Source of the DNA: Agromyces subbeticus DSM 16689
GTDB taxonomy: Bacteria > Actinomycetota > Actinomycetes > Actinomycetales > Microbacteriaceae
NCBI RefSeq assembly: GCF_000421565.1
Contig: NZ_ATXG01000014.1
Location: 1 to 64,000 of the forward strand
DNA length: 64,000 nt
Direction: 5' to 3'
Part shown: in pieces, positions 49,016 to 52,059 of the stretch
Numbering within the stretch: the stretch's first letter is position 1
Layout: every line of letters begins with the position of its first letter
Made by a program: the position numbers and the translations under genes
Notes under the pieces: model-generated
Databases searched by the model: none
Told to the model about the DNA's origin: nothing
What the model saw: the letters and a program-made list of their open reading frames with translations, nothing else

Positions 49016-49039
49016 GGTGAAGGCGAATTCGCCTTCACC
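49016..49039. repeat. 24-bp perfect palindrome
   Basis: The arms GGTGAAGGCGAA (49016-49027) and TTCGCCTTCACC (49028-49039) are exact reverse complements with no spacer. As RNA it would be a 10-bp stem with an AATT loop; as DNA it is a perfect dyad suitable for a dimeric regulator. It is 180 bp upstream of the fused sigma factor. No T-tract follows, so operator and terminator are both possible. Confidence 0.8.
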
Positions 49040-49218
49040 CAGAGAGACGGGGCACTGCGCCTTCTATGACGCGCATTCCGGAAAGATTCGTACGCGAGTT
49101 TCACAGCGATTTCTGCTGGAATGTACAGGTCCGTGACTCGCGTCATGAATCGCGTATCGACGCGTCTCTTCAGTGGGCCGACCATTCCGACACCGGCCCG
49201 CGAACCGAAGGAGCATCA

Positions 49219-51181
49219 GTGCCACCGCTGCGTACCGACCGATCGGCCGACGCCGCGCTCATCGAGCGCACGCGTCAGGGCGACCGCTCCGCGTACGCCG
49301 AGCTCTGGGAGCGGCACTCGGCCTCGGCACGCACCGTCGCGCGCTCGTACAGTTCGCTCGACCCCGACGACCTCGTGGCCGAGTCGTTCACCAAGATCTA
49401 CAGCACGATCCTCGCGGGCGGCGGGCCCACCGGTGCGTTCCGCCCGTACCTCTTCACGACGATCCGCAACACGGCGGCGGGCTGGGGGCGCGCGCGCCAC
49501 GAGACCACGCTCGACACGCTCGAGTCGTTCGAAGACCCTGCGTCGAGCGAGTCGGCCACGCTCGAAGCCCTCGACCGCGGCGCAACGGCGCAGGCTTTCC
49601 GATCGCTTCCGACCCGGTGGCAGGAGGTGCTCTGGTACTCGGAGGTCGAGAACATGACCCCGCAGCAGATCGCTCCGCTGCTCGGCATGAGCGCCAACAG
49701 CACGGCGGCGCTCGCCTACCGGGCTCGCGAGGGACTGCGGCAGGCCTGGATCCGCGTGCACCTGCGCAACCCCGCGAACGCCCCCGAGTGCCAGTGGACG
49801 ATCGATCGCCTCGGCAGCTACACCCGGGGCAAGCTCCGCACTCGCGAGACCACGCGACTCGAGGCGCACCTCGACGACTGCGCCAAGTGCACGATCGTCG
49901 CCGCCGAGGCTCGCGACGTCGGCTCCCGCCTCGCCCTCGTGCTGCTCCCGCTCACGGCAGGCATCGGCGGCGCGACCGCCTACTCCGCCTGGCTCTCGCA
50001 AGGCGCACCGGTCGCCGATCTCGCACTCGGCGCGGCCGGCATGCCTGCCGTCGTCACCGGTCTACACTCGGCGGGCGCGACCGGAGCTGCGGGCGCAACC
50101 GGAGCTGCCGGCGCATCCACGGGCGCATCCGGCACAGCCGGCGCGGGTGCCGGTTCCGGTGCCGCCGGAACCACGGCGGGCGCAACGGCCGGCGCATCGA
50201 CGGCCGGCGGCCTGGTCGGCGCGGTGGGCGGTGCCGGTGTCGTCATCGGTGCCGGAGTCGGTACCCTCGTGCTCGCGGCGGCGGCCGTCGCTGCCGTCAT
50301 CATCGTGCCGACGCTCGCCGCGGCGCCGCCTCCGCCCGAGACCTCGGTGGTCGCCGAGCCGGCGCCCGATACGACCGAGATCGAGGTTCCGAATGTCGCG
50401 GCGCCGGTGCCGCTTCCGATCGTGCCGCCGATCGCACCGCCGAATCCCGTCGCTCCCCCCGGTCGACGTCGAGCCCGAAGAGGTCGACGCCGCGCCATCG
50501 CCTTCGCCGATTCCCGACCCCACTCCGCCGACGACCACGCCCACGACACCAACGCCCACGACACCGACCACGCCGCCCGATCCCGAGCCCGTCGACACCG
50601 TGGCCCTGCCGCCGGTGGTGTTCGAGCCCGACACCGGCGGCGGCCTCGTCGACCCGATCCTGTCGGGCACCGCCGAACCGGGTGCAGAGATCCGAGTGCA
50701 GGTGCAGTCCGACGTCGTTCTCTCGGCCGCGTCCGCATCTGCCGCTGTCGCCGAGCCCGACGCGACCGCCGACGCCGACGGAAACTGGTCGCTGACGTAC
50801 TCGGGCCTTCCGGCTGGCACGCACCTGCTCACCGTCACCCAGACCGACCTGGCCGGCAACGACTCTGTTCCCGGCATACCGGTCGAGGTCTCGCTGTCGA
50901 GTCCCCAGTTGGTGCTCGAGGGTATCGGTCGCTACGTGTGGCGCATCTCGTTCGATGGCGCCCCGGGTGCAACCGTGCAGGTGCTCGTCGACGGCGCGGA
51001 GTACAGTCGGGTCGTGCTCGATGCGGAAGGCGATTACACCGTTCGCGGGCTCTTCGACATCCCCCGCGACATCATGGTCACGGTGCGATACACCGCGGAT
51101 GAACGGTATGGTCCGACCGCCGTAGCCGAGCGCTGGTGGTGGGCCGACGAGGCATCCGCTCCGGCTAGTCTTGCGGGATGA
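49219..51181 (+). CDS. ECF-type sigma factor fused to zinc finger, membrane and Ig-like region; interrupted by a one-base frameshift
   Basis: GTG at 49219 follows GAAGGAG. Residues 1-185 hold sigma region 2 (RSYSSLDPDDLVAESFTKIY) and region 4 (LPTRWQEVLWYSEVENMTPQ, GMSANSTAALAYRARE). A zinc-finger anti-sigma-like motif HLDDCAKC follows, then hydrophobic segments near 235-256 and 332-368 flanking a Gly/Ala/Thr-rich collagen-like linker, and a Pro-rich stalk. The frame then breaks: a C6 run at 50455-50460 needs one base skipped to continue into VDVEPEEVD, a Thr/Pro stalk, an Ig-like domain (NWSLTYSGLPAGTHLLTVTQ) and the stop at 51181, which overlaps purU. Unshifted, the frame runs to 51102 with Arg/His-rich nonsense. 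Real mutation, phase variation or sequencing error cannot be told apart. Confidence 0.75.
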
Positions 51182-52059
51182 CCGAGCACGTTCCCGGCGC
51201 ACCTCCCGAACGCCTGCACCACTGGGTCGTCACCCTCAGCTGCACCGACGGCCCCGGCATCGTGCACGCCGTGAGCGGCGCGATGGTGGCCGCCCGCGGC
51301 AACATCACCGAGAGCCAGCAGTTCGCGAGCCTCGATACGGGCCGCTTTTTCATGCGCCTGCAGGTCGAATCGCCGGCGGGCCGTGACGAGGTCGAAGCGG
51401 CGCTGCATCCGGTCACCGAGCGCTGGGGCATGCAGTGGCACCTCGACGAGGTCGCCCGCCCCCTGCGCACCCTCGTGCTCGCCTCGACGGCCGGGCACTG
51501 CGTGAACGACCTGCTCTTCCGCCAGCGCGCGGGGCAACTGTCGGTCGAGATCCCGCTCGTGCTCTCCAACCACGGCACTCTCCGCGACCTGGTCGACTTC
51601 TACGGGGTGCCGTTCGAATCGCTCGCCGTCACGGATGCCGCGTCGAAGGCCGAGTTCGAACGACGCGTGCTCGCTGCGGTCGACGAACACGACATCGAGC
51701 TCGTCGTGCTGGCGCGCTACATGCAGATCCTCTCGCCCGAGCTGTGTGCTGCGCTCGAAGGCCGCTGCATCAACATCCACCACTCGTTCCTGCCCGGATT
51801 CAAGGGGGCGAACCCCTATCGACAGGCGCACGCACGCGGCGTGAAGCTGATCGGTGCGACAGCGCACTTCGTGACGAGCGACCTCGACGAGGGCCCGATC
51901 ATCGAGCAGAACGTCGTGCGCGTCGATCACTCGCGCAGCCCCGCCGAGCTCGTCGCGATCGGGCAAGACGAAGAGAGCCGCACGCTCAGCCAGGCGGTCA
52001 AGTGGTTCGCCGAGCGCCGGGTGCTCGTCGACGGCGCCCGCACGATCATCTTCCGCTGA
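51178..52059 (+). CDS. purU: Formyltetrahydrofolate deformylase
   Basis: The 293-residue protein has an N-terminal ACT domain (VVTLSCTDGPGIVHAVSGAM) and a formyl-transferase-fold hydrolase with IPLVLSNHGTL, VLARYMQILS, INIHHSFLPGFKGANPY and the Asp in VTSDLDEGPIIEQ. It releases formate from 10-formyl-THF to balance the one-carbon pool and purine synthesis. The ATG at 51178 overlaps the TGA of the shifted frame of the sigma gene, which supports that frame as genuine coding sequence. Confidence 0.95.
   Translation: MTEHVPGAPPERLHHWVVTLSCTDGPGIVHAVSGAMVAARGNITESQQFASLDTGRFFMRLQVESPAGRDEVEAALHPVTERWGMQWHLDEVARPLRTLVLASTAGHCVNDLLFRQRAGQLSVEIPLVLSNHGTLRDLVDFYGVPFESLAVTDAASKAEFERRVLAAVDEHDIELVVLARYMQILSPELCAALEGRCINIHHSFLPGFKGANPYRQAHARGVKLIGATAHFVTSDLDEGPIIEQNVVRVDHSRSPAELVAIGQDEESRTLSQAVKWFAERRVLVDGARTIIFR

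Follow-up and report, generated by a model that had tools for sequence, protein, structure and literature searches.

A stretch of 64,000 nucleotides from Agromyces subbeticus DSM 16689, hereafter the window, which lies on contig C14 of a genome of 34 contigs and 4.3 Mb, carries at positions 49219–51181 a gene that joins an ECF sigma factor to a zinc-finger anti-sigma region, two hydrophobic segments, a Pro/Thr stalk and two Ig-like domains; its reading frame changes by one base at a run of six C. We consider it probable that this gene specifies a transmembrane signalling pathway in one polypeptide, in which a sigma factor would be held back, released by a trigger at the cell surface and directed to transcribe from a promoter-like element, and that the break in the window copy is recent, neither conserved nor programmed.

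Domain architecture, topology and distribution

All features lie on the forward strand unless stated otherwise. The gene was read from a GTG at 49219, preceded by the ribosome-binding site AAGGAG (49208–49213), and an ATG-started ORF at 49066 was set aside because that start lies upstream of the promoter-like element. From the GTG, 413 residues are open (49219–50457), containing the sigma domain, a zf-HC2 domain, a hydrophobic segment, a linker and a second hydrophobic helix, with homologues along this first part. Sigma region 4 (49588–49731, residues 124–171) matched Sigma70_r4_2 above the Pfam cut-off (3.1e-6), whereas region 2 (49303–49476, residues 29–86) matched Sigma70_r2 below it (0.0041) and is spanned by the NCBIfam model sigma70-ECF, which scored 9e-17 on the first part. 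Regions 2 and 4 only, with region 2 under the Pfam cut-off, place the protein among the ECF sigma factors. The zf-HC2 anti-sigma zinc finger (49789–49890; 3.1e-7, above cut-off) includes HLDDCAKC at residues 217–224 and was present in 66 of the 66 intact homologues scanned.

The first hydrophobic segment (49930–49995) is highly conserved, with a borderline hydropathy of 1.51 in the window, and is followed in the translation by a Gly/Ala/Thr-rich linker (50008–50244) and by a second hydrophobic segment (50245–50307; hydropathy 2.59), likely a transmembrane helix. Behind the C6 run (50455–50460), the second frame encodes the Pro/Thr stalk (50459–50602) and the two Ig-like, beta-sandwich domains (50603–51178), which matched Big_6 (1.1e-10) and Big_13 (1.1e-8) in Pfam and end at a TGA (51179–51181) that overlaps the ATG at 51178 of an ORF named purU by reading its sequence (51178–52059), forming ATGA. 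The earlier note had described these parts from the letters, namely sigma regions 2 and 4, the HLDDCAKC zinc finger, two hydrophobic segments with a Gly/Ala/Thr linker, a one-base shift at 50455–50460 leading into a Thr/Pro stalk and an Ig-like region, and a stop overlapping purU, and its description held throughout, with the Ig-like region comprising two domains.

A structure model of the tail showed two beta-sandwiches (pLDDT 88), and its nearest PDB entries include the adhesins Bap and SiiE (7dm0_A, 2.7e-7; SiiE 2yn3/2yn5, about 1e-4 to 6e-4), with low TM-scores of 0.2–0.4 for the two-domain model and similar scores for eukaryotic FnIII domains. The AlphaFold model of the sigma and zinc-finger part was weak (pLDDT 69, pTM 0.37), and a contact of the two was not seen in it.

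Charges flanking the second helix were counted in 139 genes, giving 34 K/R and 10 D/E within at most 25 residues before the helix and 55 K/R (8 of them from the frame-shifted gene L072) and 407 D/E in the 25 residues after it, a balance that leans towards the linker being inside and the stalk outside. K/R alone do not favour this arrangement, with more before than after the helix in 12 genes, more after than before in 33 and equal numbers in 94. By hydropathy, the first segment too qualifies as a helix in 126 of the 139 genes, and if it also spans the membrane the Ig domains would lie on the cytoplasmic side.

The closest named relatives are mostly Agromyces, and the genomes of the window's genus are taken here as Agromyces. 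Counting the window's own, the sigma gene was found in 55 of 60 Agromyces genomes (E ≤ 1e-40) and in 102 of 299 Microbacteriaceae genomes (E ≤ 1e-60). An Ig family was matched in 22–23 of the 66 scanned homologues at the threshold used; most of the others had no listed sensor domain, and the 10 families listed for the 66 included no carbohydrate-binding family. One homologue (L281, genome G359) is a short form of 339 residues without a sensor, which ends just past the second helix, has RRAK before that helix and is followed by another gene. A Microbacteriaceae-type gene with 64% identity (L109) comes from a record titled Planococcus sp. APC 4015, which is perhaps mislabelled or contaminated.

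The frame break at the C6 run

At 50455–50460 the coding frame switches, and the homologous tail runs on in the next frame to its TGA, while the first frame stays open to 51102 as an Arg-rich stretch. The tail has kept its coding composition, with a GC3 of 0.81 in its own frame versus 0.54 in the first, and no further damage was seen in it. Since homologues have both halves in one frame, and since a codon-usage HMM, tuned until it found this break as its positive control, located across the 64 kb just one frame switch that has no stop close by, at this very run, the frame change is more than chance. A C6 run is unremarkable in itself: the window contains 10 C/G runs of this length.

In a first set of 30 genes (the window gene and 29 same-genus loci), 27 were open to the stop, one was cut by a contig end and two were broken, the window gene and that of Agromyces sp. 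S2-1-8 (G033; L022, identical with L072). A wider set, overlapping the first, held 160 sequences representing 145 distinct genes, of which 133 were readable, 11 ran off a contig end and one (L122) contained an N gap. Among the readable genes, 127 were open, one was unclear (L276) and five were broken: the window gene, L072 in G033, L158 in G017, L110 in Microbacterium ihumii, which has two shifts, and L275, from a genome 86% complete; automatic flags on L091, L102, L123 and L247 were dropped after reading by eye. G033 has an independent break at another C6 run, shifted in the same direction. No C6 run marks the breaks in G017 and M. ihumii, although C5 runs occur close by. Eight of 27 intact Agromyces genes contain a C6 or C7 run beyond the second helix, and all eight remain in frame (three in the stalk, four at the junction of the stalk and the first Ig domain, one in an Ig domain).

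Further candidate breaks found by the HMM in 400 kb per genome numbered one in the window's genome, not at a homopolymer, none in G033 and one in G017, and because they are so rare these assemblies are not generally frame-damaged. The occurrence of a break in this gene in three Agromyces genomes (window, G033 and G017) exceeds the rate suggested by the 400-kb samples, in a comparison for which the window gene was picked for its break and the control was not matched for C-rich stalks. The stalk is thus a weak spot for mutation or sequencing, with no switch shown, and the break appears to be a recent accident or a slip of sequencing rather than a switch built into the gene.

A real and recent loss of the sensor, leaving a mutant or pseudogene allele that encodes a membrane-anchored sigma factor ending in an incorrect, Arg-rich tail, comes close to being the probable explanation. 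The clean assembly argues for it, as do the single break, the otherwise undamaged tail and the existence elsewhere of the sensor-less form L281, while the same points that favour an error stand against it. Such an error of sequencing or assembly, with the gene intact in the isolate, is a serious possibility that we rate as somewhat improbable. Most readable relatives are intact, and five of the 11 genes that run off a contig end (L068, L080, L086, L093, L129 and six others) do so 891–972 bases past the start, in the low-complexity linker. A split Streptomyces clavuligerus orthologue was suspected of being an error by the authors of PMC5826349, and among 104 genomes with a match to the C-terminal half of a Streptomyces-type gene, 91 had both halves on one contig and strand (the other 13 having them on different contigs or strands, or missing the N-terminal half), with equal open frames in 87 and out-of-frame halves in four when the rows were compared by eye. 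These four breaks, two in the stalk, one in a Gly-rich linker and one across an N gap, fit an error too but are not leaned on here, because the two of their genomes that were sampled break often elsewhere (4 candidate breaks per 200 kb each). Against an error, the window assembly is otherwise clean, its genome's one further candidate in 400 kb not lying at a homopolymer and no other being found in the window.

The earlier note had proposed that slippage at the C6 tract possibly switches the gene, so that the display of the surface sensor would be turned on and off within a population. Six bases make a short tract, which counts against such phase variation. The tract is not conserved, relatives share no common tract of the length-varying kind that marks a phase-variable locus, in-frame C6 or C7 runs occur in the 8 of 27 intact Agromyces genes, and the five breaks among 133 genes fall at differing places, those of G017 and M. 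ihumii not at a C6. The independent break of G033 at a C6 run in the same direction speaks for slippage, as does the homopolymer phase variation known in Mycobacterium tuberculosis, itself an actinobacterium with homopolymer frame changes as described in PMC11898584; the Agromyces gene differs from those variants in having neither a conserved tract nor a sign of reversal. Because the breaks are few, scattered and mostly at other tracts, slippage was dropped as the leading reading, and we judge it very unlikely. Relatives that were all intact and free of the tract, which the earlier note had named as evidence against its switch, were found in part: most are intact, but a few other copies are broken and in-frame runs are common. 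Programmed +1 frameshifting at CCC CCC G, which would yield the full-length protein and draws on the two consecutive CCC codons at the site, was rejected as barely conceivable because most readable relatives are in one frame and need no shift, and the shift site was not conserved among the homologues.

A promoter-like element and the genes behind it

A shared motif, GCGTCATGA-N14-CGTCTC, precedes the gene in relatives: among 41 loci examined, 19 matched a loose pattern, and 17 of these have a spacing of 14 between GCGTCATGA and CGTCTC. A TGGAAT further upstream was rejected as a −35 box because its distance varies from 8 to 23. In the window, the element reads GCGTCAT-N16-CGTCTC and lies at 49140–49168, directed toward the sigma gene, with near-constant spacing in relatives and enrichment over a reversed control. 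The exact element occurs at four sites in the 4.3-Mb genome: this one, a divergent copy at 49044–49072 on the reverse strand, directed away from the gene, and two others, each immediately preceding a small CxC-motif ORF. Searches allowing up to two mismatches were noisy (364 sites versus 122 in the control). Directly behind the divergent copy, at about 49017–49041, lies a palindrome, GGTGAAGGCGAATTCGCCTTCACC, with a similar hairpin in several relatives, which may be the end of nagA or the start of a small divergent RNA.

Followed by a T, the element occurs 92 times in 41 of the 60 Agromyces genomes, compared with 3 sites for the reversed control; 27 sites lie before the sigma gene in its direction, 19 are divergent and 46 lie elsewhere. 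Exact sites were found at 39 of 56 Agromyces sigma genes, a count that excludes three weaker paralogues, and were absent at 17. Five Agromyces genomes lack the sigma gene at E ≤ 1e-40; among them are two fragmented assemblies, of 810 and 840 contigs, and G010, in which a distant homologue scores 1e-20. Together these five contain one of the 92 sites, which precedes no clear gene. Across the 299 Microbacteriaceae genomes, 51 exact sites fell in 34 genomes versus 4 control sites, and a site was present in 29 of the 102 genomes that carry the sigma gene versus 5 of the 197 that do not (Fisher p 8.5e-11, the kinship of the genomes being ignored); 73 of the 102 had no exact site. In G114, G188, G340, G105, G118, G301 and G211, the element often lies near the end of the sigma gene and in its direction, as judged from coordinates compared by eye, as if these non-Agromyces elements served the next gene downstream.

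The position, spacing and co-occurrence of the element suggest that the sigma factor recognises it. An operator or promoter belonging to another regulator could also explain the element, since two divergent copies might equally be an operator, 17 of the 56 sigma genes have no exact site, and 6 of the 51 family sites come from 5 genomes that lack the sigma gene. We consider this unlikely, because the spacing of 14 between GCGTCATGA and CGTCTC is held while the distance to TGGAAT drifts, the element is associated with the sigma gene across the family, and one of the 92 Agromyces sites falls in the five genomes lacking that gene.

The genes behind 35 of the 46 Agromyces sites away from the sigma gene were read. 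Twenty-three of these sites precede a small CxC ORF, a share that may be too high because 15 sites were given and 20 were picked with a preference for the GCGTCATGA/AA type, so that the picks leaned to consensus-like sites and 11 sites were left out. Seven precede a secreted-looking protein, comprising five of the choice-of-anchor-A family, one of which (at L402) has a match that begins further downstream without a clear start, and two of DUF6923; five precede nothing clear. The CxC ORFs (L330:1186-1455, L329:1301-1480 and 21 others) fall into 20 of the type HRE.F...C.C.R..DHW, mostly HREFF...CTC.RG.DHWY, and three of a second type, and those scanned (5 of 23 in Pfam, 3 of 23 in NCBIfam) had no match above cut-off. 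A profile of the CxC protein matched 9 of the 299 family genomes, and because its six matches outside Agromyces are weak (3.8e-6 to 9.3e-4) the protein looks mainly Agromyces-bound. Two non-Agromyces sites precede secreted-looking proteins, one of them with a CshA-type repeat. The sigma factor probably turns on its own gene and a few small-protein and surface genes.

Proposed mechanism and comparison with known systems

From what is seen in the sequence, namely the domain order, its conservation, an open frame in the majority of readable relatives, the element and the genes that follow it, we infer the holding and release of the sigma factor, its topology, its recognition of the element, the signal sensed and the cause of the break. 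The chain would run from the ECF sigma domain through the zinc-finger anti-sigma part, the first hydrophobic segment, the linker and the membrane helix to an extracellular portion made up of the Pro/Thr stalk and two Ig-like domains of adhesin type. In the resting state, the sigma domain would be retained at the membrane by the zinc-finger part; when the surface domains receive a signal, cleavage or a conformational change would set the sigma domain free to transcribe from GCGTCAT-N16-CGTCTC. Its targets would be its own gene, in a positive feedback, and a handful of others, often encoding small CxC proteins and secreted surface proteins. The window copy would have recently lost its frame in the stalk by one base, through mutation or through a sequencing or assembly error.

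More speculatively, and rather doubtfully as a whole, Microbacteriaceae might possess a complete surface-sensing pathway encoded by one gene, served by a promoter type of its own and reinforced by positive feedback, with a very small regulon of undescribed CxC proteins and surface proteins; the C-rich stalk would be a mutational weak point at which the sensor is occasionally lost in nature, as in the three broken Agromyces genes. If true, the cell would sense the state of its own surface and adjust that surface. Fused sigma/anti-sigma proteins are little studied, and a predicted promoter, a regulon of few genes per genome and a different sensor make a small system, testable in harmless soil bacteria, for asking about the signal, the cutting of the chain and the role of the CxC proteins. 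Within the limited paper collection searched, nothing was found on the fused sigma family in Agromyces or Microbacteriaceae; as far as this literature goes, the kind of protein is known, and the type of sensor, the promoter-like element and the genes behind it are new.

The nearest described system is SCO4117 of Streptomyces coelicolor, the first ECF52 member characterised, which according to PMC5826349 likewise joins in one chain a sigma factor, zf-HC2, a transmembrane region, a proline-rich extension and a C-terminal extracytoplasmic domain, a likeness drawn from that description and from Streptomyces-type genes. The N-terminal part is homologous to those genes (profile A3, best five 2.3e-63 to 6.3e-67). 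Autoregulation, as proposed here, was also suggested for SCO4117 (PMC5826349). By contrast, an NPCBM C-terminal domain was found in 5 of 5 Streptomyces-type proteins scanned in place of the Ig-like domains, the published SCO4117 motif CSGYN-17-SRHA is unlike GCGTCAT-N16-CGTCTC, and the effects described for SCO4117 concern development and antibiotics (PMC5826349). Of the ECF52 features given in PMC5826349, the window gene has the C-terminal zinc finger, the transmembrane region (by hydropathy alone) and the proline-rich extension, and in place of a carbohydrate-binding domain it has Big_6/Big_13; it resembles SCO4117, and membership in ECF52 is not claimed.

ECF53 and ECF48 are similar by description, being actinobacterial with a zinc finger, one to two transmembrane helices and a proposed proteolytic activation (PMC8999054), and release by proteolysis has been proposed for actinobacterial fused sigma/anti-sigma factors (PMC8999054, PMC5826349). 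The earlier note's interpretation agrees with these ECF52 and ECF53 proposals in its core, a membrane-anchored sigma/anti-sigma fusion that probably has an extracytoplasmic sensor and is released by a signal, and was not supported as regards slippage switching. IutY of Pseudomonas putida (ECF243) is likewise described in PMC8999054 as a sigma factor that shares its chain with a membrane anti-sigma part and is freed by proteolysis, but its system serves iron-starvation cell-surface signalling in a Gram-negative bacterium. The Ig-like repeats of Bap and SiiE are near the predicted sensor in structure, but these are surface adhesins, not signalling proteins. A second stretch resembling the tail, with 32% identity (5.5e-12), lies elsewhere in the window's genome (G000:C4:99999-100616).
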